A DNA stretch of 64,000 bases, taken from Psychrobacillus sp. NEAU-3TGS (GTDB lineage Bacteria; Bacillota; Bacilli; Bacillales_A; Planococcaceae). The notes under the pieces were generated by a model that saw only the letters and a program-made list of their open reading frames with translations, was not told the DNA's origin and ran no database searches. Shown piece by piece: positions 22,558 to 37,868 of this stretch (within the stretch, counting starts at the first letter, position 1; each line of letters starts with the position of its first letter). Where the stretch lies: positions 833,208 through 897,207 of the forward strand of contig NZ_JAPNOZ010000012.1 in NCBI RefSeq assembly GCF_029955155.1, given 5' to 3'. The translations under genes were made by a program, and so were the position numbers.

Positions 22558-23055
22558 TTAATTATAAAATTCTTCCGGTATAGCTCCAATAGTTCTTCGA
22601 TGATAAAGAAGCGGTTCTTTATCTTCATTTTGGATATCTAGCACTTCACCAATAATCGTCGTGTGATCTCCTGCATCAATTTGGCTAAATACTTTACATT
22701 GTAAAGTAGCTAATGTATCCGCAAGAACCGGCAAATCCAGTTCAGACTTTTTCCAGTCACATTGGCTGAAGCGGTCTTCTACTTTGCTAGAAAATAGCGT
22801 ACATAAATCACTTTGATCAGAAGCTAAAATATTCACGGTAAATTTGTCTACTTTTAAAAATTCTTCATACGAGTACACTCGCTTATCAATTGACCATAAA
22901 ATAAGTAGTGGTTCTAAGGAAACCGATGCAAATGAGTTAACTGTCAGCCCCATTGGTTTCCCCTCTTGGTTAAATGCTGTTACTACTGTTACGCCTGTAG
23001 GGTAATTGCCCATTGCCGCCTTAAAACTTGCTATCTGCTCTATTTTATTATCCAT
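22558..23055 (-). CDS. Flavin reductase family protein (flavin monooxygenase component)
   Basis: 165 residues with the split-barrel flavin reductase fold. GNYPTGVTVVTA near the N-terminus, GLTVNSFASVSLEPLLILWSID and GDHTTIIGEVLDI with YHRR near the C-terminus are the standard family blocks for FMN/FAD binding and NAD(P)H-dependent reduction. Such proteins supply reduced flavin to a partner monooxygenase, but none is visible nearby. The ATG at 23055 is chosen because GGAAGAAG lies about five bases upstream; longer in-frame starts at 23070 and 23100 add residues unlike the family. Confidence 0.88.
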   Translation of the reverse strand: MDNKIEQIASFKAAMGNYPTGVTVVTAFNQEGKPMGLTVNSFASVSLEPLLILWSIDKRVYSYEEFLKVDKFTVNILASDQSDLCTLFSSKVEDRFSQCDWKKSELDLPVLADTLATLQCKVFSQIDAGDHTTIIGEVLDIQNEDKEPLLYHRRTIGAIPEEFYN

Positions 23056-27696: not shown

Positions 27697-28473
27697 TTAT
27701 AATATATCTAACCAAATCTTCACTGCAGTTACAAATATTAATACAGCTAAAATTATCTGTAACACTTTTGTATTTAACTTTTTCCCAGTCATAGCCCCAA
27801 GTGGTGCAGCAATTAAACTTGCAATCACCATGATAAGTGATGGTAAGAATTCTACTTGCCCGGTTGACACTTTTCCGCTAATGGCACCAATTGATGAAAT
27901 AAGGGTTATCGCCAAGGAGGAAGCAATTGTCATTCGTGTTGGTATTTTTAATACAGTAAGCATGATGGGCACTAATAAGAACGCCCCACCTGCACCAACA
28001 ATTCCTGCAGCTACTCCCACGATTAAGGCAAGTAATGCGGCAATCCATTTGTTAAACTTTATCTGCTCAAGGGGTATGTCATCAAGTCCTTTTTTAGGTA
28101 TGAACATCATGATGGCAGCAATTATCGCTAAAATTCCATAGACTATATTAATTCCGCTTTCAGGAATCTGTGTGGAGCCAAATCCTCCAATGAAACTACC
28201 AATTAAAATACTAACACCCATGTAAGCAATCAGTTTTTTATTTAATAATTCACCTTTACGATAGGCAATGACACCACCGATTGTCGCAAAAAATACTTGA
28301 ATTGCAGTTATTCCCGACACTTCATGGGCTGTATAATGAGCAATACCAAGTGCTGAAGGGATATACAACAACATAGGAAAATTAATAATGGATCCACCTA
28401 TTCCTAACATTCCCGAAATAAATGAGCCTATTAATCCTATGAAGAAGATGATAGCAATAAAGCTTATATCCAT
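27697..28473 (-). CDS. TauE/SafE family sulfur-compound exporter
   Basis: 258 residues with eight hydrophobic helices in two halves. [25 protein letters not shown] and the matching second-half [19 protein letters not shown] are the duplicated GGG-type signatures of the TauE/SafE family, whose members move sulfite, sulfoacetate or thiosulfate-like anions. In Staphylococcus aureus tauE belongs to the CstR-controlled cst locus, and here it lies 50 bases downstream of the rhodanese-MBL gene. A role in exporting sulfite made by persulfide oxidation is inferred. TAGGAGGTTAAA precedes the ATG. Confidence 0.9.
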
Positions 28474-28524: not shown

Positions 28525-29651
28525 TTATCGAACTGCACAACGATTTGGTCCAATTTCCATTTCACGTTGCGTTTCTTCATCAGTGCTCTTTTTCCCCATA
28601 TTCATTTCACGAATATCTTGATATGCATTTGGCTGTGGCGGTAAATTTTCAGTCACCATTTGTCTAAATTCATTTTCATCCTCCATGTTTAGCCCATGAT
28701 TTGTTTCATAGAGCGTACTTAACTTTTCAGATACACTACCATCTGCATTTAATTCATCTATAATCATAAAGTGTGCTGGTAGAACGATTAGTTCCCCAGA
28801 TAACTCTTTGTATCTCGTGTATAGACTTTCTCTTAGATCCTCAACCCAGTCCTCGGCTAACCCAGCTAAGTCTGGTCTTCCAATGGAATCAATAAATAAT
28901 ATATCTCCTGATAATAAGAACTTTTCGTCCACAACAAAAGACGTTGATCCAATTGTATGTCCTGGAGAATATAACGCATGAATATTTATAAAAGCATTAC
29001 CAATTGTCACTACATCTCCATCTTCTAATGGTTCATATTCAAAGGTAACATCCACAGCGTCTTTTGGTGGAAGCAAGTATATTGCGTTTGTTTTTTCAGC
29101 AAGTTGTCTCCCACCAGAAATATGGTCGGCATGTAGATGCGTATCGAAAATATGGGTAATTTTTGCCCCAATACGATTTGCAAAATCCAGATAGACATTC
29201 GTCATTCTTGCAGCGTCTACAATGGCAGCCTCACCGTTTGAGACGATCATATAAGACAAGCATCCCTTACCAATTCGTACAAACTGATAAATTTCTCCAC
29301 CATCTTTTAGATCCCCAATTTTTACAGGTTCTAAATGTTCACTCCATGCACTCATTCCACCCGTTAGGGAAGAAACTGAAAGTCCTGCCGCTGTAAGCAT
29401 CTCTGCCACTACCATAGACGAGCGCCCTTTGGCACAAACAACAAGTACATCTTTATCAGAAGGAATCTTAGCCAAAATCCCTTCTACACCATCAAGTAAT
29501 TCAAAATATGGTACATTTAAATAATCAAAGTTCTCCCCTTCAATTTTCCAGTCTGCAAAATCACTTCCATTCCGAATATCTAAAATAAATAGCTCTTCTT
29601 TGTTAAATACTTTTTTGTTACCTCTTTTGAAGTCATGGTATTCACAGTCAT
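28525..29651 (-). CDS. Rhodanese/MBL persulfide dioxygenase-like protein, frameshifted near the 5' end
   Basis: An ETHE1/CstB-like metallo-beta-lactamase domain follows a rhodanese domain. The rhodanese loop is [12 protein letters not shown] ligands are [13 protein letters not shown] and SGDILFIDS. The family oxidises glutathione or CoA persulfide to sulfite. Translation should begin at ATG 29651 (AGGGGG upstream, overlapping a CstR operator) but meets a stop after 23 codons. A -1 shift at the A-run 29611-29616 restores one frame of about 375 residues. The run forms the heptamer A AAA AAG in register, with GAGG shortly upstream. Either one A is missing (mutation or sequence error) or the gene uses programmed frameshifting. 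Without the shift, only TTG 29475 opens the frame, losing half the rhodanese domain. Confidence 0.85.
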
Positions 29652-29655
29652 ATTT

Positions 29656-29671
29656 TTACCCCCTGCGGTAT
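29656..29671 (-). promoter_or_regulatory. CstR operator 5, at the rhodanese-MBL start
   Basis: TTACCC-CCTG-CGGTAT, same 6-4-6 design as the other CstR sites, placed over the ribosome binding site of the rhodanese-MBL gene. Confidence 0.7.
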
Positions 29672-29719
29672 ATTTATTTATAAAAAAATTTAAAACGTGA
29701 TTGTTACATCTTCTTTCTT

Positions 29720-30154
29720 TTATTTCAAAAAAACTTTACCTTGTACTTCAATAGTAACGCCTGCTTTTTTCAATAAGTTTCCGACTTCGCATTCTTTATC
29801 TGCTCCTTCTATTGCTCTTTGTGCAGATTGAATTTGTATTTCTGTTGCATCCGCAGATAAAATGATTTGTGGATAGTGAGTTATGTTAAATCCATTATCG
29901 GATATCGCTGCCTCGGAATTTATTGTATGTTCTACTACAGGTAACTTTCTGCTTTCAAGCATATAAGTAAGCGTTGCTATAAAACAAGTTGCGGCTGAAG
30001 AAACTAGTAACTCTTTAGGATCTGTCCCGTTTCCACTGCCACCCAAAGAGATTGGAATAGCGACTTTTGTATCCAGATAATCTGCCTTAAGAGTCCCATT
30101 CCCTGTTGCTCCACCATGCCAAACAATATTTAAATTTGTTTTCAACTCTGCCAG
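29720..30154 (-). CDS. OsmC family protein, probable CTG start
   Basis: About 144 residues. The peroxide/persulfide-reactive cysteines are visible in SSAATCFIATLTYMLES and KECEVGNLLKKAG, and GGSGNGTDPKELL is the family's central glycine-rich block. OsmC/Ohr proteins reduce organic hydroperoxides and some handle persulfides, which fits this island. The first standard start is TTG at 30145, without a well-spaced ribosome binding site. The CTG at 30154 gives MAELKTNLNIVWHGG, a natural family N-terminus, with GGGGGA nine bases upstream and an in-frame TGA just before. A CTG start is inferred. Confidence 0.85.
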   Translation of the reverse strand: MAELKTNLNIVWHGGATGNGTLKADYLDTKVAIPISLGGSGNGTDPKELLVSSAATCFIATLTYMLESRKLPVVEHTINSEAAISDNGFNITHYPQIILSADATEIQIQSAQRAIEGADKECEVGNLLKKAGVTIEVQGKVFLK

Positions 30155-30245
30155 CGTTCACATTCCCCCATTTAAATTATTAATATTTAATCTCAATCTT
30201 CATTACCTTTCATTTCTAGAAGCCTAAAATTTCAGCTGAATGAAG

Positions 30246-30641
30246 TTAAAATGTCAATGTTACGTCAGCGTCTTTAGCAAACTCTAAAAATGTAACAGCT
30301 CCGCCTACTTCAATTCCATCGATAAAGTTCTCTTTATCTAATCCCATAACATCCATAGTCATTTGGCAGCCAATGAATGTAACACCCATCTCTTTTGCCA
30401 TTGCTACTAATTCCGGGATGGCCGGAACATTGACTTTAGTAAATCCTTCTGCAAAATGCTCTTTTCCTACTGGCATTGGAAGTTGCTGATATGCCTCTTT
30501 GTGAATTAAGTTCAATCCCTCAAATGTAAAGAAAATGGCTACTTCTTGATCTGTTGCAGCAGCTGCAGTTGCGATATTAAATACTTTGTATGCATCAAAT
30601 AATCCACCATTACTTGCGATAATTGCTACTTTTCTATTCAT
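30246..30641 (-). CDS. DsrE/DsrF/DrsH-like sulfur-relay protein
   Basis: 131 residues with the DsrE-like fold (KVAIIASNGGLFDAYKVFNIATAAAA, AIFFTFEGL). A single conserved cysteine lies at about residue 92 in FIGCQMTMDVMG, the place where DsrE2-type proteins carry persulfide. These proteins pass sulfane sulfur between TusA, rhodanese and downstream acceptors. It overlaps the glutaredoxin gene by eight bases, so the two are translationally coupled, and it shares their CstR operator. Confidence 0.9.
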   Translation of the reverse strand: MNRKVAIIASNGGLFDAYKVFNIATAAAATDQEVAIFFTFEGLNLIHKEAYQQLPMPVGKEHFAEGFTKVNVPAIPELVAMAKEMGVTFIGCQMTMDVMGLDKENFIDGIEVGGAVTFLEFAKDADVTLTF

Positions 30642-30885
30642 TTATTTTTCCTCCATTTCTTAATGCAATCATGATATTGTTTGGATCAAAGCCTACAATC
30701 CATTGACCATTCACTTCAGTTTGTGGCACTCCCATTTGTCCTGTTGTTTTTACAAGTCGTTGCATAACTTCAGGTTGTGTTTCCACATTCACTTCAATAA
30801 AAGGAATGTTTTGTTCGGATAAAAAGTTCTTTAACATAACACAATAAGGACATTGTGTTGTTGTATATACTGTTACTGAATTCAT
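30634..30885 (-). CDS. Glutaredoxin family protein
   Basis: 83 residues. The redox motif Cys12-Pro-Tyr-Cys15 (TTQCPYCVM) is the classical dithiol glutaredoxin site, with TGQMGVPQTEVNGQWIVGFD as the cis-proline and thiol-binding region. In low-GC bacteria without glutathione it probably acts on bacillithiol or CoA mixed disulfides and persulfides. The ATG at 30885 has AGGAGAGAT upstream; longer starts lie upstream without one. First gene of the glutaredoxin-dsrE pair behind CstR operator 4. Confidence 0.9.
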   Translation of the reverse strand: MNSVTVYTTTQCPYCVMLKNFLSEQNIPFIEVNVETQPEVMQRLVKTTGQMGVPQTEVNGQWIVGFDPNNIMIALRNGGKINE

Positions 30886-30940
30886 TTTCAAATCTCTCCT
30901 TAACGATTTTTTGTAAATATCCTTCATTTTCGTCACCTAA

Positions 30941-30956
30941 ATACCATTGGGGGTAT
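30941..30956 (-). promoter_or_regulatory. CstR operator 4, upstream of glutaredoxin-dsrE
   Basis: ATACCA-TTGG-GGGTAT (6-4-6), about 56 bases upstream of the glutaredoxin start codon. Confidence 0.7.
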
Positions 30957-30974
30957 ATGAAATTCTAAAAAAAT

Positions 30975-31271
30975 TTACTCTTCCTTGCCTTCCCAAGAAA
31001 GCATGCCACCTTGCATATTGATCACGTTATAACCTTGTTCTTCAAGGAATTCTGTTGCACGTCCACTTCTTCCTCCTGAACGACAAACCATGATATACTC
31101 ATTTGACTTATCTAATTCATGCATACGAAACTCAACTAATCCTAATGGAATATTTATTGCTCCTGGAATTTTCCCATCTGCTACTTCATCTACCTCACGC
31201 ACGTCGATTATATTTAATAGCTTTCCTTCATTCATTAAAGTCTCCACTTCTTTTGCAGTCATTTCTTTCAT
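30975..31271 (-). CDS. Single-domain rhodanese sulfurtransferase
   Basis: 98-residue rhodanese with the active loop Cys63-Arg-Ser-Gly-Gly-Arg-Ser (VCRSGGRS), flanked by IIDVREVDEVADGKIPGAINIP and INMQGGMLSWEG. The cysteine carries the persulfide during sulfur transfer from thiosulfate or other sulfane donors. GGGGGA precedes the ATG. It lies 19 bases after the membrane-anchored rhodanese gene and probably shares its transcript from CstR operator 3. Confidence 0.92.
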   Translation of the reverse strand: MKEMTAKEVETLMNEGKLLNIIDVREVDEVADGKIPGAINIPLGLVEFRMHELDKSNEYIMVCRSGGRSGRATEFLEEQGYNVINMQGGMLSWEGKEE

Positions 31272-31290
31272 TTTAAGTCCCCCTATTCTA

Positions 31291-31653
31291 TTATCTCCAG
31301 GTGCTTATGCCACCTTTTACATTTGTTACTTTAGTAAAGCCCATTTTTTTTAATATCTTAGTCGCTTTTTGACTTCTCATTCCACTTTGGCAAATAACAA
31401 TCACTTCTTTTTCCTTTAAAAGTTCCTTATCCGCTTTTTGAGAAAGTTGGTGAAGAGGAATATTTTTAAAGCCTTTGATATGATTACCTTTAAATTCACC
31501 AGGTGTTCGAACATCCACAAATTGCTTTTCCCTGTTATTTAACTCTTCTTTTAGATCTGTTGTTGATAGTTGCCTTACTCCTTTTGTTGGTAGAGCACGC
31601 TGTAAAATGAAAACCAAGAAAAGAGCGATAAGGATGTAAATTACGTATTCCAA
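31291..31653 (-). CDS. Membrane-anchored rhodanese-like protein
   Basis: 120 residues: one N-terminal transmembrane helix (EYVIYILIALFLVFIL, residues 2-17) followed by a rhodanese domain with Cys88 in ICQSGMRSQKA. The domain should face the cytoplasm. TTG at 31653 is chosen because AAGGTGG lies about eight bases upstream and gives MEYVIYIL, the usual start of this family; GTG at 31665 overlaps the ribosome binding site. It is the first gene after CstR operator 3. Confidence 0.87.
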   Translation of the reverse strand: MEYVIYILIALFLVFILQRALPTKGVRQLSTTDLKEELNNREKQFVDVRTPGEFKGNHIKGFKNIPLHQLSQKADKELLKEKEVIVICQSGMRSQKATKILKKMGFTKVTNVKGGISTWR

Positions 31654-31680
31654 ATCTGTTACCACCTTAACGGAAATTAT

Positions 31681-31696
31681 TTACCCCCTAGGGTAT
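31681..31696 (-). promoter_or_regulatory. CstR operator 3, upstream of the rhodanese pair
   Basis: TTACCC-CCTA-GGGTAT (6-4-6), about 28 bases before the membrane rhodanese start. Confidence 0.75.
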
Positions 31697-31718
31697 AAAA
31701 CTGTATAAAAAAATAGAA

Positions 31719-31946
31719 TTAGCCCTTTTTAATCCAAAACTTTAATACTTCATCTTCTTCCTCATGTTTCAGAAGCTCATGCCCACCAGATCTAGCCCAG
31801 GCTGGGAAGTCATTTTTAGCTCCCTTATCTGTTGTGTGAACCTCTAGTAATTGACCCTCTTCAAGTGCATTTATGGCCATTTTACTTTTTACGATTGGCA
31901 TTGGGCATGCTAATCCTTTTACATCTAATACTTTATCAACATTCAT
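31719..31946 (-). CDS. TusA/SirA-like sulfurtransferase
   Basis: 75-residue TusA-family sulfur carrier. The motif DVKGLACPMPIVK carries the conserved Cys14 that holds the persulfide, and TTDKGAKNDFPAWARSGGHELL is the usual second half. It receives sulfur from rhodanese or persulfide donors and passes it on. AAGGAGGAATAAAA precedes the ATG. It sits between CstR operators 2 and 3, so it is probably its own transcript or the start of a longer one. Confidence 0.93.
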   Translation of the reverse strand: MNVDKVLDVKGLACPMPIVKSKMAINALEEGQLLEVHTTDKGAKNDFPAWARSGGHELLKHEEEDEVLKFWIKKG

Positions 31947-31971
31947 TTTTATTCCTCCTTTTCTTTTACCG

Positions 31972-31987
31972 TTACCCCTATGGGTAT
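31972..31987 (-). promoter_or_regulatory. CstR operator 2, upstream of tusA
   Basis: TTACCC-CTAT-GGGTAT (6-4-6), 25 bases upstream of the tusA start codon. Confidence 0.75.
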
Positions 31988-32024
31988 ATTAACGGAAGAA
32001 AAAAAAGATGTCAACCCTTAAGTT

Positions 32025-32285
32025 TCATCTGCTTTTTACAAGCAAGTTGACAGCTTCTTTAATTAGTTCGTCCGTTTTTTCTCCATTTTTTTCAGCATCT
32101 TGAACACATTCAACTAAGTTTGAACTTACAATCACACCTATTGTACGATCTACTGCTGAGCGAACAGCCGACAACTGGGTAATGACATCTTTACAATCTT
32201 TGTTTTCTTCCATCATTTTTAAGATGCCGCGAAGTTGCCCTTCCATACGCTTTACTCTATTTTTAAGTTGATCATTATATTCCAT
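32025..32285 (-). CDS. cstR: Persulfide-sensing repressor CstR (CsoR family)
   Basis: 86-residue all-helical repressor of the CsoR/RcnR family. Cys31 (NKDCKDV) and Cys60 (LVECV) are in the same positions as the two sulfur-sensing cysteines of S. aureus CstR, while the copper-ligand histidine of CsoR is replaced (SSNLVEC, Asn). This is the diagnostic pattern for persulfide sensing rather than copper. In the reduced form it binds GC-tract operators; sulfide-derived persulfides cross-link the two cysteines and release it. It autoregulates through operator 1 and likely controls the five-operator regulon downstream. Confidence 0.92.
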   Translation of the reverse strand: MEYNDQLKNRVKRMEGQLRGILKMMEENKDCKDVITQLSAVRSAVDRTIGVIVSSNLVECVQDAEKNGEKTDELIKEAVNLLVKSR

Positions 32286-32329
32286 AGAAGTTCACCTCCA
32301 AGTTCATCACAAAATTACTGACAGTCATC

Positions 32330-32358
32330 ATATTATACCCTCACAGGTATATTGTCAA
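32330..32358 (-). promoter_or_regulatory. cstR promoter with CstR operator 1 in the spacer
   Basis: On the minus strand TTGACA (32353-32358) and TAATAT (32330-32335) are 17 bases apart. The palindrome ATACCC-TCAC-AGGTAT (32335-32350) fills the spacer and touches the -10 box, ideal for autorepression. Confidence 0.82.
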
Positions 32359-32391
32359 CACTGACAACTAGTCCTACCCTATTAATTCAAA

Positions 32392-32802
32392 CTACTTATT
32401 AATAACAATTGATAATTTATAATTTGCATGTTTGTTTAAATCTTCCAGAAATTCATCTAATGCTTTATTCGATGGAAATTTGCATTCGAGAAAATAACAA
32501 CCATCCCCACTGATTTTATAATTATGGATTATGTATGCTTCTTGAGTTTTTATAAACGATAGATAAGGTTGATGGTAAGTACTTTGTGTAATAATCGTAA
32601 TAAAAGCGTGTATAAAATACCCTAATTTAGTTTGATTAACTTTTATTGTATACCCCTCTATCAAGCCATTATCCTCTAACTTGGCAACTCTACCTGAAGC
32701 AGCTTGTCCAGTTAAATGGACCTTCTCACCCAATTCTTTCATGGTGATACGACTGTTTTTGGATAGCTCATCCAAAATAAGCTGATCCGTGTTATCTAAC
32801 AT
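32392..32802 (-). CDS. Lrp/AsnC family regulator
   Basis: 136 residues. An N-terminal AsnC-type helix-turn-helix (LDNTDQLILDELSKNSRITMKELGEKVHLTGQAASGRVAKLED) is followed by an alpha-beta RAM effector/oligomerisation domain. The ATG at 32802 has GGAG eight bases upstream; a start at 32820 overlaps that site. It is divergent from the MBL-fold gene at 32919 with inverted repeats between them, so it may control that gene and itself. The effector, usually an amino acid, cannot be told. Confidence 0.9.
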   Translation of the reverse strand: MLDNTDQLILDELSKNSRITMKELGEKVHLTGQAASGRVAKLEDNGLIEGYTIKVNQTKLGYFIHAFITIITQSTYHQPYLSFIKTQEAYIIHNYKISGDGCYFLECKFPSNKALDEFLEDLNKHANYKLSIVINK

Positions 32803-32823
32803 TTGTTTAACTCCTTTCATTTA

Positions 32824-32889
32824 TCAAGTCAAACCCCAAAAAGACTTGAATTTATCTATGTAACGCTGATTGACCATAGTATAAACTAT
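32824..32889. promoter_or_regulatory. Inverted repeats between lrp-like and MBL genes
   Basis: TCAAGTC (32824-32830) and GACTTGA (32843-32849) form a 7-bp inverted repeat with a 12-bp centre; ATAGT-ATAA-ACTAT lies at 32876-32889. Both are in the 116-base divergent region and are candidate binding sites for the Lrp-like regulator. Confidence 0.45.
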
Positions 32890-32918
32890 ATACGAATCAA
32901 AGAAAAGGAGTTGTAATT

Positions 32919-33677
32919 ATGGATATTCAACTTATTCGAAATGCTACGCTCGTTGTTCAATATGCAGGCAAAAAGTTTTTAATAGACCCAATGTTAGCAG
33001 AGAAAGGAACTTACCCACCTTTCCCTAATTCATTAAGACAGGATCAAAACAATCCACTGGTTAATTTGGTTACACCAATTAATGAATTAATTAATGTCGA
33101 TGCGGTAATCGTCACACATCTACATTTAGATCACTGGGATGATGCCGCTATAGATACATTGCCAAAAGATATTAAATTATTTGTCCAAAATGCGGAGGAT
33201 GCGACAGTAATTCACAACGCTGGTTTCAATAATATAGAAGTTTTACAAGAGGATACGCTCTTTGAAGATGTTCAATTAGTTAAAACAAAAGGGGAACATG
33301 GAAGAGGACCGGTGTTAGAACTTGCTGGTCAAGTATGCGGTGTCGTCTTCAAACATCCAAGTGAAAAAACGTTATATGTAGCAGGAGATACTGTTTGGTA
33401 TGAAGCTGTTCAAGAAGTGATTGAGACACATAAACCGGAAGTAATTGTTGTAAATGCTGGAGACAATCAATTCCTTGAAGGCGGTTCGCTCGTAATGGGG
33501 AAAGAGGATGTTTATGAATTGTATAAAGCTGCTCCTGACGCAAGAATTATTTCCGTCCATATGGAAGCTGTCAATTACTGGACATTATCGAAAGAAGAAT
33601 TGAAAAACTTTAGTCAGGAAAAAGGAATCTCTTCCAATGTATTAGTGCCAGACGATGGTGAATCCTACACATTTTAA
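32919..33677 (+). CDS. MBL-fold metallo-hydrolase
   Basis: 252 residues with a metallo-beta-lactamase fold of the UPF0173/UlaG-like branch. The zinc motif THLHLDHWDDAAI (His-x-His-x-Asp-His) is intact, YVAGDTVWY supplies the bridging Asp, and ISVHMEAVNYW a later His. The N-terminus MDIQLIRNATLVVQYAGKKFLIDPML is typical. Substrate unknown. AAAGGAGTTGTAATT precedes the ATG. Divergence from an Lrp-like gene suggests regulation by it. Confidence 0.88.
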   Translation: MDIQLIRNATLVVQYAGKKFLIDPMLAEKGTYPPFPNSLRQDQNNPLVNLVTPINELINVDAVIVTHLHLDHWDDAAIDTLPKDIKLFVQNAEDATVIHNAGFNNIEVLQEDTLFEDVQLVKTKGEHGRGPVLELAGQVCGVVFKHPSEKTLYVAGDTVWYEAVQEVIETHKPEVIVVNAGDNQFLEGGSLVMGKEDVYELYKAAPDARIISVHMEAVNYWTLSKEELKNFSQEKGISSNVLVPDDGESYTF

Positions 33678-33681
33678 GCAT

Positions 33682-33722
33682 AAAAAACAGACAGAAAAGC
33701 TACATTTCTGTCTGTTTTTTTA
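33682..33722. terminator. Bidirectional terminator after the MBL gene
   Basis: A perfect 16-bp stem (AAAAAACAGACAGAAA with TTTCTGTCTGTTTTTT) ends in Ts on both strands, between the MBL and carbonic anhydrase genes. Confidence 0.88.
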
Positions 33723-33816
33723 TCCATATTTCATAATTGTACATTTGATTTAAAAACCGAATTCCTTGTTTAATATAGATGAATGTAAAGACATCAGGAA
33801 AGGATTTTTCAATCAT

Positions 33817-34380
33817 TTAACGCTCATATCCGTCTACTACTACATCTAACTTTCCTGTTTCGGGGCAGATTACAAGCCCATGGACACTTATGTGTTTGGG
33901 AAACATCGGATGATTCTTGACCATATTAACGCTTTGTTCGACACTTTCTTCAACTGATTGAAATCCTGTTAACCAGCTTTTAACGTCAATACCTGCATTC
34001 ATTAAGGTTGGTAGGACGGTTTCATCTAATCCGCCTTCCTTACATTTTTCTAAGAAAGAATTAGGCTCTAACCCATTCATTCCACAACCATGATGTCCAA
34101 CGATCGCGACTTCTTTTGCACCAAGCTCATAAACGGCAACTAATATACTTCGCATGACACTTCCAAATGGATGCGACACAATTGCTCCCGCATTTTTAAT
34201 AAGCTTGATGTCACCATTTTTTACGTTCATTGCTTTGGGCAATAATTCCACAAGTCGTGTATCCATACAAGTAAGAATCACCATTTTTTTATTAGGAAAT
34301 TTAGTCGTTTCATATTTTTCATATTCTTTATCTTCAACAAATTTGTTATTGTAATCAAGAATCTCAGAAATTAATGTCAT
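33817..34380 (-). CDS. Beta-class carbonic anhydrase
   Basis: 187 residues. Zinc ligands and active-site dyad are visible: Cys38-x-Asp40-x-Arg42 (LTCMDTRLVE), and His96-x-x-Cys99 (VGHHGCG). It interconverts carbon dioxide and bicarbonate in the cytoplasm. The family contains both canonical enzymes and YtiB-type proteins of Bacilli, which it resembles in length and in the LIKNAGAIVSHPFGSVMRSI segment. ATAGGAGTGATATAA precedes the ATG. Monocistronic. Confidence 0.92.
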   Translation of the reverse strand: MTLISEILDYNNKFVEDKEYEKYETTKFPNKKMVILTCMDTRLVELLPKAMNVKNGDIKLIKNAGAIVSHPFGSVMRSILVAVYELGAKEVAIVGHHGCGMNGLEPNSFLEKCKEGGLDETVLPTLMNAGIDVKSWLTGFQSVEESVEQSVNMVKNHPMFPKHISVHGLVICPETGKLDVVVDGYER

Positions 34381-34551
34381 TTATATCACTCCTATATAGT
34401 TTATAAAATTATTTCATAACTTTCTTTTATATTCAATATACAATAACTCCAATTGTTCTTACTATATATAGAAGCCTCTGAATTTACATGGAGTAATATG
34501 TAATCTATAGAGGAAACAGTGTAAACACCGTTCACTCTATAGTTAACTAAT

Positions 34552-36969
34552 CTATTTTTCTAATTTCACTCTTTGCAAACGTAAAGCATTTAACACGACT
34601 GACACAGAGCTAAATGCCATTGCTGCACCTGCAACCCATGGAGCAAGTAACCCGATGGCTGCAATAGGAATACCAAGTGTATTGTAGCCAAATGCCCAGA
34701 ATAAGTTTTGTTTAATATTGCGCATTGTTTTGCGACTCATTAAAATTGCATCGGCAATACTATTTAAATCTCCTCGGATTAGCGTTACGTCAGCGGCTTC
34801 CATCGCAACGTCAGTCCCTGTCCCAATAGCCATCCCAATATCAGCTGTAGCTAGTGCTGGAGCGTCATTAATACCATCTCCGACCATCGCCACTTTTTTA
34901 CCGGTCGCTTGCAGTTTCTTCACCTCTTCTGCTTTACCTTCTGGAAGAACTTCTGCAATGACCGCGTCAACGCCTACCTCTTTCCCAATAGCTTGTGCTG
35001 CTCGCTTATTATCACCTGTCATCATAATGACTTTGATACCCATTTCTTTCAAACGACGTACGGCTTCCACTGATGTGTCTTTGATTGTATCTGCTACAGC
35101 AACTAGCCCTGCATATTGTCCATTAATCCCAGCTAACATCGCTGTTTTACCGTCGCTCTCCAATTTCTCCATTGTTGGAAGAATAGCTGTAATATCGATG
35201 CCGTATTGCTGCATGAGCTTACGTGTTCCAATGACAACGCCTTGACCTGAAACGGTTGCTTGCACACCATACCCTGGAATTGCTTCGAAGAATTGGACGT
35301 CACCAAGTTGAATACCTTTTTCCCCAATCCCTTGTACGATTGCTTGTGCTAATGGGTGCTCGGATTGTTTTTCTGCTGCACCGATCAATGATAAAAATTT
35401 CTCTTCGTCTTGATCAGCTACTACTAAAATATCTGTTAATACAGGCTTACCATGTGTTACAGTTCCTGTTTTATCTACAACGACTGTATCAATGCTTTGT
35501 GTTTGTTCTAAATGCTCGCCGCCTTTGAATAAAATACCAAATTCAGCTGCACGACCCGAACCTGCCATAATAGAAGTTGGTGTCGCTAAACCAAGAGCAC
35601 AAGGACAAGCGATAACTAATACCGCGATTAACACTTCCAGTGCAGGTGTAAACTCACCTGGTTTAACCCAAATAATCCATACTAAGAAGGTAAGAATCGC
35701 GATTCCAACTACAATCGGTACAAAAATACCTGATATTTGATCCGCCATACGTTGAATTGGTGCTTTTGATCCTTGAGCGTCTTCTACTACTTTAATAATT
35801 TGAGCCAATGCAGTGTCACGACCAACTTTTGTAGCTTTCATTTTGATAAAACCATTTTTATTAATCGTCGAACCGTATAAGACATCACCGCTTTTTTTAT
35901 CAACCGGCAAACTTTCACCTGTTAACATGGATTCATCAACGGCTGACGTTCCTTCTAGTACTTCTCCGTCAACTGGAATTTTTTCACCTGGCTTTACTAA
36001 AATAGTATCTCCAATCATTACTTCTGCTAATGGTATCTCTTTTTCAATACCGTCACGTAAAACGATTGCTGTTTTTGCTTGAAGTCCCATTAATTTTTTA
36101 ATCGCTTCAGATGAACGGCCTTTAGCTTTGGCCTCAAATAATTTACCTAAAACAATGAGTGTAATCAGTACAGCACTTGTTTCAAAATATAGGTGGGGAC
36201 TGTGATGTGTCCCAGCTGTAATAATTGCCTGATAAACACTATAAAAATAGGCTGCAGAAGTACCCATAACAACAAGCACATCCATATTGGCACCGCCATT
36301 ACGAAGCGTTTTATATGCACCGACATAAAACTGTTTTCCGATAATAAATTGTACCGGTGTTGCTAAAATTAGTTGTATCCATGGATTCATTAAAAAGTCT
36401 GGCACGTATAAAAATGATGTAAAAGAAAAGTGCGCTACCATCGTCCATAATAATGGTAACGACAAAATAGCCGATGCAATAAACTTACGTTTCTGTTCTT
36501 TGATGGCCTTTTCACGGTGGTCTACTTGTTCTTTATCTTCTTGCTTTTGATGTGCACCGTAACCAAGCTTCTCTACCTTCGCAATAATGTCCGCAATTGT
36601 TACTTCTGACGGATTAAATTCGATTGTTGCTTTTTCAAGCGCTAAATTAACGTTCGCTGATGCAACACCTTCCATTTTATTTAACCCTTTTTCAATACGA
36701 GTAGAACATGCTGCACAAGTCATTCCTGTAATATCAAATTCCGCTTTTTCTTTCACTACACCATAGCCAAGTGCTTCAATTTTCTTTTCCAAATCTACTG
36801 CATTCAGTTTGGATGGGTCATATTTAATCGATGATTTTTCTAATGCCAAATTGACTGTTGCTTGCTCGACACCTTCCATTTTATTGAGCCCTTTTTCTAT
36901 ACGGGTAGCACATGCCGCACAGGTCATTCCAGTAATTTGTATATTTGATTCTTTTACTTCTATACTCAT
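34552..36969 (-). CDS. copA: Copper-exporting P-type ATPase CopA
   Basis: 805 residues, P1B-type ATPase. Two N-terminal heavy-metal domains each carry GMTCAAC-type copper motifs (about residues 12-17 and 80-85), then eight membrane helices. The transport site is CPC in [17 protein letters not shown], the phosphorylation loop DKTGT ([11 protein letters not shown]), TGES in the actuator domain, and GDGINDAP in the hinge. It exports Cu(I) at the expense of ATP. The ATG at 36969 follows GAGGAGGTAAACATT. It forms a copper module with copZ and csoR, each with its own CsoR operator. Confidence 0.96.
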
Positions 36970-36984
36970 AATGTTTACCTCCTC

Positions 36985-37001
36985 ATACCTATTAGGGGTA
37001 T
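36985..37001 (-). promoter_or_regulatory. CsoR operator upstream of copA
   Basis: ATACCT-ATTAG-GGGTAT, a 6-5-6 inverted repeat 16 bases before the copA start codon. The 5-bp centre distinguishes it from the CstR sites. Confidence 0.75.
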
Positions 37002-37040
37002 AATTCATTGAAAATGAGAGAGTGCTTTAAAAAGCACTCT

Positions 37041-37247
37041 TTATTCTACCTCATATCCTTGATCTTCAATCGTTTCTTTAATTGTATCAAGTGTTACTTG
37101 CGATTCATCGAATGCTACCTCGACTTGAGCATCCGCTAGGTTCACTTTTACTTGTTCTACTCCTGCTAATTGACCAACGCTTCCCTCGACTGCATTCACA
37201 CAATGCCCACAAGACATACCCTGTACTTCTAAAGTTATATTTTTCAT
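37041..37247 (-). CDS. copZ: Copper chaperone CopZ
   Basis: 68-residue ferredoxin-like heavy-metal-associated protein. Cys13 and Cys16 in VQGMSCGHCVNAV bind Cu(I), which is handed to the N-terminal domains of CopA. The ATG at 37247 has AAGGAGAGAAAAAG upstream; an in-frame start at 37298 would place coding sequence over the operator. A 71-base gap to copA contains the copA operator, so both genes can be derepressed together. Confidence 0.95.
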   Translation of the reverse strand: MKNITLEVQGMSCGHCVNAVEGSVGQLAGVEQVKVNLADAQVEVAFDESQVTLDTIKETIEDQGYEVE

Positions 37248-37274
37248 CTTTTTCTCTCCTTTTGTATTCCCCTT

Positions 37275-37291
37275 ATACACTATGGGGGTAT
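37275..37291 (-). promoter_or_regulatory. CsoR operator upstream of copZ
   Basis: ATACAC-TATGG-GGGTAT (6-5-6), 28 bases before the copZ start codon. Confidence 0.72.
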
Positions 37292-37322
37292 ATATCAATT
37301 AAAAAAATAGTCACTATTCTTT

Positions 37323-37655
37323 TTATTTTTTCATGAGCTTTTGAATCGTTACTACTAATTCGTCTAATACTTCTTCATCACCTTCTGAAAGGCGATCGAC
37401 GACACAACCTTTTAAGTGACCTTCTAAAAGAATTTTGGCAACACTATTTAACGCAGATTGTGTAGCAGACAATTGAGTAATCACATCATCACAGTAAACA
37501 TCTTTTTCAATCATGCCTTTAATACCGCGAATTTGACCCTCAATTCGATTCAATCGAGTTGTTAAATTATTTTTCACATGTTCTGGATGATGACTTTTTC
37601 GACATGATGTAACCTCTTCTTTATGGCAAGCTACTTCCTCCACTAAGTTTTCCAT
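37323..37655 (-). CDS. csoR: Copper-sensing repressor CsoR with Cys/His-rich N-terminal extension
   Basis: 110 residues, all-helical CsoR family. The Cu(I) ligands are Cys55 (DVYCDDVITQ), His80 and Cys84 (LLEGHLKGC), the full copper-sensing set, in contrast to CstR at 32025. Cu(I) binding releases the repressor from the copZ, copA and csoR operators. The first 27 residues (MENLVEEVACHKEEVTSCRK, then SHHPEHV) add two cysteines and four histidines not needed for the core fold and may form an extra metal site. AGGAGGATAAACAG supports the start. Confidence 0.93.
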   Translation of the reverse strand: MENLVEEVACHKEEVTSCRKSHHPEHVKNNLTTRLNRIEGQIRGIKGMIEKDVYCDDVITQLSATQSALNSVAKILLEGHLKGCVVDRLSEGDEEVLDELVVTIQKLMKK

Positions 37656-37688
37656 CTGTTTATCCTCCTATCTTGATTACACTCTAAC

Positions 37689-37705
37689 ATACCTTAAGGG
37701 GGTAT
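37689..37705 (-). promoter_or_regulatory. CsoR operator upstream of csoR
   Basis: ATACCT-TAAGG-GGGTAT (6-5-6), 34 bases before the csoR start codon; indicates autoregulation. Confidence 0.75.
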
Positions 37706-37868
37706 GTAAAGTTAGAAGTTCGAGTTTTATCTTGTAATTTTTTGCGCCTAACATTTGGTTTAGCGGAGTAATTACTTTTGAAAAAAATAACTTTTCTAAA
37801 AACAAAACTTCCATTCGTCATCATAAACCCTCTGTTGGGAAAGTATCAATTAGTTGACTGAATATTCT

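Follow-up and report, generated by a model that had tools for sequence, protein, structure and literature searches.

One base of operator spacing sets apart the predicted persulfide- and copper-type CsoR-family sites of Psychrobacillus and related Bacilli

How might two adjacent paralogous repressors, whose operator-like sites share nearly the same half-sites, keep a sulfur and a copper response apart? This question is raised by a 64,000-nucleotide stretch of the Psychrobacillus sp. NEAU-3TGS genome (hereafter the window; genome size, 4.42 Mb), which holds a sulfur island at ~27.7-32.4 kb, with cstR at its end (32025..32285, minus strand), and a copper module at 34.5-37.7 kb that comprises copA, copZ and csoR (37323..37655, minus strand). 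Both regulatory genes encode CsoR-family repressors. Taking the gap as the number of bases between TAC and GTA, an anchor that makes the spacing unambiguous (a 4-bp centre is a gap of eight, N8; a 5-bp centre is a gap of nine, N9), we found that the sites of the two regions differ by one base.

Five sites in the sulfur island have the eight-base gap; their coordinates start at TAC, with the first base of the 6-mer, which the earlier note on this DNA used as its coordinate, in brackets. These are ATACCC-TCAC-AGGTAT at 32336..32349 (32335), lying between the -35 and -10 of a cstR promoter-like element and abutting the -10; TTACCC-CTAT-GGGTAT at 31973..31986 (31972), upstream of a tusA-like gene and sharing one base with its -10; TTACCC-CCTA-GGGTAT at 31682..31695 (31681), upstream of a rhodanese-domain gene (31291-31665); ATACCA-TTGG-GGGTAT at 30942..30955 (30941), upstream of a glutaredoxin-like gene (30634-30936); and TTACCC-CCTG-CGGTAT at 29657..29670 (29656), upstream of a rhodanese/metallo-hydrolase (persulfide dioxygenase-like) gene. 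Three sites in the copper module have the nine-base gap: ATACCT-TAAGG-GGGTAT at 37690..37704 (37689), inside the -35/-10 spacer of a csoR promoter-like element; ATACAC-TATGG-GGGTAT at 37276..37290 (37275), upstream of the copZ-like gene; and ATACCT-ATTAG-GGGTAT at 36986..37000 (36985), between the copZ-like gene and copA. The general CsoR operator is given in print as TAC-X9-GTA (PMC3902906), a form that the three copper sites have and the five sulfur sites, with eight bases, do not.

Scanned strictly from end to end (gaps 5-12, at least 5/6 flanking matches), the window returned nine sites, namely these eight and one at 22990, which has an N9 gap and lies outside the sulfur island and the copper module. 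When we scored the 64 kb with a half-site matrix that is blind to the gap (gaps 3-16), exactly these eight ranked first (18.8-22.3 bits). Next came a composite match at 31967, sharing bases with the 31973 site (16.2 bits), and then one at 13.7 bits. The five 6-4-6 sulfur sites and three 6-5-6 copper sites of the earlier note are therefore all where it had placed them, by strict scan and by sequence check, and the 4/5 split that it had read across them holds when counted from TAC to GTA. Across the Psychrobacillus genome, the pattern WTACCN5-8GGTAW occurs at 52 places, most of them without C/G tracts, and none of those listed from beyond the window made a convincing additional CstR site. Shuffling of labels gives a clean 5:3 split with a chance of 1/56, so that eight sites alone are weak evidence and relatives must decide.

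The two proteins fall into the classes that their neighbourhoods suggest. PF02583 (CsoR/RcnR, DUF156) has three matches over its curated cut-off in the genome: cstR (domain at 865265-865483 of contig C4, assembly G000), csoR (870545-870781) and one further gene. Window CstR has two cysteines at the CsoR cysteine positions (Cys31 and Cys60), Asn56 in place of the copper-binding His, and no His anywhere in the protein, whereas window CsoR has the Cys-His-Cys ligand set (Cys55, His80 and Cys84); checked on the protein residues, this numbering is that of the earlier note. Window CstR, which is identical to CstR of Psychrobacillus lasiicapitis (locus L050), shares 60.5% and 57.0% identity with two annotated staphylococcal CstR proteins and groups with three staphylococcal CstR, apart from CsoR, on a 28-row non-His side of the tree (Shimodaira-Hasegawa-like approximate likelihood ratio test, SH-aLRT, 98). 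Its gene adjoins sulfurtransferase and persulfide dioxygenase-like genes (family matches mostly below curated cut-offs), and csoR sits beside copZ/copA. As a member of the CstR class, window CstR would release DNA when a persulfide links Cys31 and Cys60; as a member of the CsoR class, window CsoR would do so on binding Cu(I). The third PF02583 gene (C4:137245) is copper-type with its own copZ-like neighbour, forming a second csoR-copZ pair (L002, 1426-1976), and has a nine-gap site upstream that ends ~110 bp before the family domain (19.2 bits). We also observed that residues 10-26 of window CsoR form a Cys/His-rich N-terminal extension (Cys10, His11, Cys18, His22, His23 and His26), and that one relative (L218, genome G047) carries, ~2 kb from its normal cstR, a second and very divergent CstR-like gene on a long branch (35% identity to window CstR).

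To extend the count to relatives, we sampled cstR loci from the best 80 of 292 relatives found, together with 100 stretches around family members of relatives, hand-chosen among the matches listed, and other loci from searches. A profile of both window proteins found 226 family genes (122 Cys-His-Cys, 103 Cys-Asn-Cys and 1 Cys-Asp-Cys). Three loci repeating the window, and copies sharing both the protein and 60 upstream bases, were removed before counting, and the 217 distinct genes comprised 119 with His (CsoR-type) and 98 without (CstR-type); these come from related genomes and are not independent, and sites were assigned to repressors by neighbourhood. In a strict scan within 500 bp of the 217 genes (gaps 3-16), CsoR-type genes had 106 nine-gap and 2 eight-gap sites, with one each of gaps 4, 6, 10 and 11 and four of gap 14, and CstR-type genes had 218 eight-gap sites and 1 nine-gap site, with 40 of gap 14 and one of gap 15. 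Under first-order Markov resampling, no gap length is expected more than 0.5 times in an entire class. Counted by gene (gaps 6-11, within 500 bp), a nine-gap site was present at 71 of the 72 CsoR-type genes with any strict site, two of which also had an eight-gap site, the remaining gene having a ten-gap one; an eight-gap site was present at 90/90 CstR-type genes, one of them also with a nine-gap site. The split extended beyond the immediate neighbourhood: with copies included, sites 400-3000 bp from the gene were nine-gap in 16 and eight-gap in 2 cases for the CsoR type, and eight-gap in 143 versus nine-gap in 1 for the CstR type, for which sites more than 3000 bp away still divided 31 to 3.

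A matrix blind to the gap gave the same picture, although its training set consisted of the strict-scan sites with gaps 8 and 9, pooled at equal weight, so that it is not independent of them. Where the best site reached at least 16 bits, it was nine-gap at 75/77 CsoR-type and eight-gap at 90/90 CstR-type genes; at 12-16 bits the corresponding counts were 9/14 and 3/3, and at 9-12 bits 3/5 and 0/1. Below 9 bits or with no match (23 CsoR-type and 4 CstR-type genes), gap calls are noise. Directly upstream of copA, 38/39 sites were nine-gap (gaps 6-11; the count holds a few repeated rows, as two csoR copies can share one copA). The nearest site within 300 bp upstream, with gaps 8 and 9 only considered, was nine-gap at 54/54 CsoR-type and eight-gap at 60/60 CstR-type genes, and these sites stood at 34 and 44 different distances from their genes, respectively. 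Since the gap is constant while this distance varies, lengths vary around the sites and not inside them. At 0.14-0.8 bit each, the central bases are themselves low in information: it is the length of the centre, more than its letters, that is conserved. For pairs within one cell, genes were fetched from 96 genomes (161 genes), with both types fetched in 42 and a best site of at least 16 bits at both in 26; in 25 of these 26 the pair was nine for CsoR and eight for CstR, and in the other (G036) nine and seven. Counted genome-wide in 101 genomes, ATACC-N6-GGTAT and ATACC-N7-GGTAT occurred 0-15 times per genome, too high a background for these counts to be used. The 4/5 split that the earlier note had proposed to look for in related genomes is thus present there rather than missing, and is near-strict in Bacilli; at the sequence level, we regard a conserved spacing split in this group as established.

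Does the split reach further? We scanned the DNA within 700 bp of each family gene in 30 plasmid records, hand-picked among 100 listed matches. Two-Cys genes without the His had eight-gap top sites (17.1-22.5 bits) in three staphylococci, Lactiplantibacillus, Rhodococcus qingshengii and two Streptomyces, and weaker eight-gap sites in Geobacillus (13.0 bits) and R. erythropolis pBD2 (11.5 bits); the two-Cys genes of Leuconostoc and Clavibacter had no eight-gap site among the matches listed. Cys-His-Cys genes had nine-gap top sites (16.2-26.4 bits) in Roseburia, Ruminococcus, S. epidermidis, Listeria, Cryobacterium, Kineococcus and S. mirabilis. Three Rhodococcus Cys-His-Cys records gave weak nine-gap matches alone (10.2-14.5 bits), twice below a 16-gap match, and no nine-gap site was among the matches listed for the Cys-His-Cys genes of Micrococcus (two genes), Rubrobacter, Curtobacterium, Mycolicibacterium, Streptomyces FR1 and R. 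erythropolis CERE8, or for an S. aureus plasmid gene beside a MATE gene. Neither the Cys-Tyr-Cys gene of Deinococcus nor a second Paracoccus gene, which lacks the second Cys, had a match. Judged by these sites, the split is also seen in most Clostridia and Actinomycetota records with a scorable site.

How might one base matter? We infer that each repressor binds the sites adjoining its gene and represses there, and that spacing limits cross-binding. The persulfide-type CstR would bind TAC/GTA inverted repeats with 8-bp gaps at sulfur-island promoters, and the copper-type CsoR those with 9-bp gaps at copper-module promoters. In both, the TAC/GTA ends would be read by conserved helix-1 arginines and a helix-2 glutamine. 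In CstR/CsoR numbering, these anchors are R10/R34 (97/98 CstR-type and 119/119 CsoR-type proteins), R13/R37 (97/98 and 114/119) and Q37/Q61 (97/98 and 119/119), and their retention in both clades fits the shared half-sites. They line up with R57 and Q81 of S. lividans CsoR, a protein that needs the TAC/GTA ends and whose binding was not measurable when R57, in the helix-1 RLXR motif, or Q81 was changed; its authors connect the spacing of the RLXR motifs with that of the GTA dyads (PMC3902906). The tetramer might then act as a caliper whose clade-specific geometry, presumably a difference in reach, sets eight or nine. One base pair corresponds to ~34 degrees of twist and decides whether the dyad falls on a base pair or between two, and this would help to separate the two responses. 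In the CstR-like TTHA1953 of Thermus, adding or removing one base between the repeats changed the Kd ~10- or 15-fold, which its authors read as spacing being important for high affinity (PMC10318464); the family can therefore read spacing that finely. On balance we favour the reading, as probable though not secure, that the paralogs share a half-site reader and differ in a fixed head distance, eight for CstR and nine for CsoR, so that one base pair helps to separate their responses. That spacing is a discriminator preventing cross-talk, as the earlier note had supposed, is plausible; the split could also be an inherited property of each protein.

Several observations weigh against this reading, and we gather them here and in the next paragraph. 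The competitor that survives best, which we hold to be unlikely, if far from negligible, is that the spacing is an inherited fixed requirement of each protein and serves as a marker, insulation coming mainly from flanking and half-site bases, G-tract shape and protein levels. A classifier given half-sites only, with no spacing, reached an area under the curve (AUC) of 0.88 and a balanced accuracy of 0.81, in a 10-fold test that did not hold out relatives, so that this AUC is optimistic. Most of this signal lies in the base before ATACC, which is mostly C/T in copper (CsoR) sites and T/A in sulfur (CstR) sites; the half-sites, described in the earlier note as nearly the same, are fairly so but not exactly. 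Reading of G-tract shape has been proposed for CsoR (PMC3902906). Moreover, in a tree of 65 proteins (relatives' proteins less than ~72% alike and 21 genes of the first 20 plasmid records, with 80 named loci left out; 84 columns, a quick method and a long-branch warning), a single branch divides the proteins with the His from those without it (SH-aLRT 98), and the gap tracks this division save for one six-gap row. The correlation therefore reflects one old, long-kept split and not many independent events; it points to constraint on the gap within each clade and cannot, alone, show that the gap is a barrier. Set against this competitor, the half-sites differ only slightly (no position by more than 0.125 bit) beside the near-complete separation by gap, genomes with both proteins retain the gap, and the Thermus relative is sensitive to one base (PMC10318464). 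The flanking base as sole discriminator was rejected, as it carries too little information alone.

Exceptions to the spacing also count against its role as a discriminator. No strict site (gaps 6-11, within 500 bp) was found at 47/119 CsoR-type and 8/98 CstR-type genes. The best site of a Paracoccus Cys-His-Cys gene was eight-gap (L303, site from 1862; 18.3 bits), and the rule may not hold throughout Pseudomonadota, though the Bradyrhizobium CsoR box in print counts to nine (PMC5057107). Copper-type genes had a best site with eight-gap (14.1 bits) at L039 and six-gap at L043, and eight-gap sites occurred 951 bp and 2131 bp from the copper-type genes at L046 and L185. Conversely, a nine-gap site lies beside CstR and before a sulfur gene in G063 (L214), where there are also two eight-gap sites, and another lies 2.8 kb from cstR at L053; the cstR locus of G036 (L279) has a seven-gap site as well as an eight-gap one. 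Eight-gap sites occupy the copZ-copA position at L161 3831-3844 (G003) and L140 2711-2724 (G007), each in a genome where a CstR-like gene is present too (70% and 63% identity to window CstR), a possible rewiring of copA.

These last sites, together with composites in which a third GGTA half-site stands 2 bp past the core in 38/81 sites just downstream of cstR, could be taken as purposeful overlap that lets both repressors act, the split being a tendency. We think this improbable, given that an eight-gap site makes up only 1/39 of the counted sites just upstream of copA (the L140 site lies beyond the distance limit) and that the third half-site adds a 14-gap, not a nine-gap, to an eight-gap core. 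That the window sites were picked by eye and split by accident, for which the 1/56 of the clean 5:3 division could be invoked, is scarcely credible beside the counts in relatives and a resampled expectation of at most 0.5 sites per gap length. Returning to the spacing as an aid to separating the two regulons, a bolder form, which we put forward tentatively and would not yet bet on, has specificity between the persulfide and copper branches of the family encoded mainly by eight versus nine, in Bacillota and Actinomycetota alike and unchanged since the two split; single-base insertions and deletions could then move genes between regulons, as the eight-gap copA sites of two relatives may illustrate.

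Promoter-like elements were located in the window for cstR (TTGACA-17-TAATAT, 32330..32358, minus strand; 10/12 matches), the tusA-like gene (TTGACA-17-TAATAT, 31986..32014, minus strand; 10/12) and csoR (TTTACA-18-TAGAGT, 37681..37710, minus strand; 9/12). Totals from the promoter scan were not above those of shuffles in the scanned regions (16 vs 14.8; 4 vs 3.8), and therefore we used only the positions of single elements. All three are overlapped or abutted by an operator, which fits repression by occlusion. The 31973 site has a third TACC half-site 6 bp out, from 31967 (composite 31967-31986), and a third half-site of this kind (GGTA on the cstR strand, 2 bp past the core) accompanies 38/81 eight-gap sites within 160 bp downstream of the cstR domain. 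We rejected it as an operator type of its own (gap 14), since next to cstR it supplements an eight-gap core.

The remaining genes of both regions lie on the minus strand. Beyond cstR, the sulfur island encodes a TusA-like sulfurtransferase (31719..31946; family match below the curated cut-off), a rhodanese-domain protein with a hydrophobic N-terminal stretch (31291..31665) and a second rhodanese-domain protein (30975..31271), both with matches below curated cut-offs, and a glutaredoxin-like protein (30634..30936), a DsrE2-like sulfur carrier (30246..30641) and an OsmC/Ohr-family-like protein (29720..30145), each with a match below its curated cut-off. A metallo-hydrolase with a rhodanese part follows (28525..29475), which by gene order we take to be persulfide dioxygenase-like; its start-codon side and main body are in different frames, with the break near the start (29476-29660). 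A membrane protein (27697..28473), for which no curated family reached its cut-off, is presumably TauE/SafE-like. In the copper module, the copA-like P-type ATPase (34552..37008) is an open reading frame (ORF) with DKTGT whose listed start is probably too early, because the site at 36986-37000 lies inside the listed ORF, and the listed start of the copZ-like metal-binding protein (37041..37298) is probably too early as well.

If it holds, the split would provide a one-base criterion, open to direct test, by which copper and persulfide regulons could be told apart in genomes. It would also help to assign repressors annotated just as 'metal-sensitive', and would offer a clean example of how insulation between paralogous regulators may be maintained. 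A PDB sequence search listed nine structures from the CsoR family; a 2025 paper describes a DNA-bound structure of the family as not yet reported (PMC12724321), and the spacing rule therefore constrains models of how the tetramer grips DNA.

Both halves of the rule are already in print, separately. Beside the general operator statement, three S. lividans sites count to nine (PMC3902906), as do the RcnR sequence TACT-G6-N-AGTA quoted in the same paper, the S. aureus copA and copX sites, with the copX promoter bound in a gel shift (PMC5947656), and the Bradyrhizobium and C. glutamicum CsoR boxes (PMC5057107). On the other side, the ATACC-n6-GGTAT site of the S. coelicolor sulfane-sulfur sensor ScCsoR counts to eight (PMC7533328). 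We did not find the explicit eight-versus-nine contrast in the literature searched, which did not cover its likeliest sources. The S. lividans and S. aureus CsoR operators share TAC-X9-GTA and the half-sites with our copper sites, and are treated, in the available portions, without comparison to an eight-gap paralogue (PMC3902906, PMC5947656). The S. aureus CsoR/CstR pair likewise consists of one copper and one persulfide repressor with separate copper and sulfur operons (PMC5480029). TTHA1953 resembles the system proposed here in controlling sulfur oxidation genes, in its sensitivity to spacing and in showing little or no cross-binding with its copper paralogue, but differs in its operator, TACNNTACNNNNGTANNGTA, which lacks a G-tract, and in giving no response to NaHS in vitro (PMC10318464). 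ScCsoR has an eight-gap site, as the window sulfur sites are, and this site is called similar to copper CsoR/RicR sites in the available part of that paper, where the missing base is undiscussed (PMC7533328). There, as for B. licheniformis YrkD (PMC9918477), a sulfur cluster is repressed by a two-Cys member of the family, which is what we propose for CstR in Psychrobacillus.

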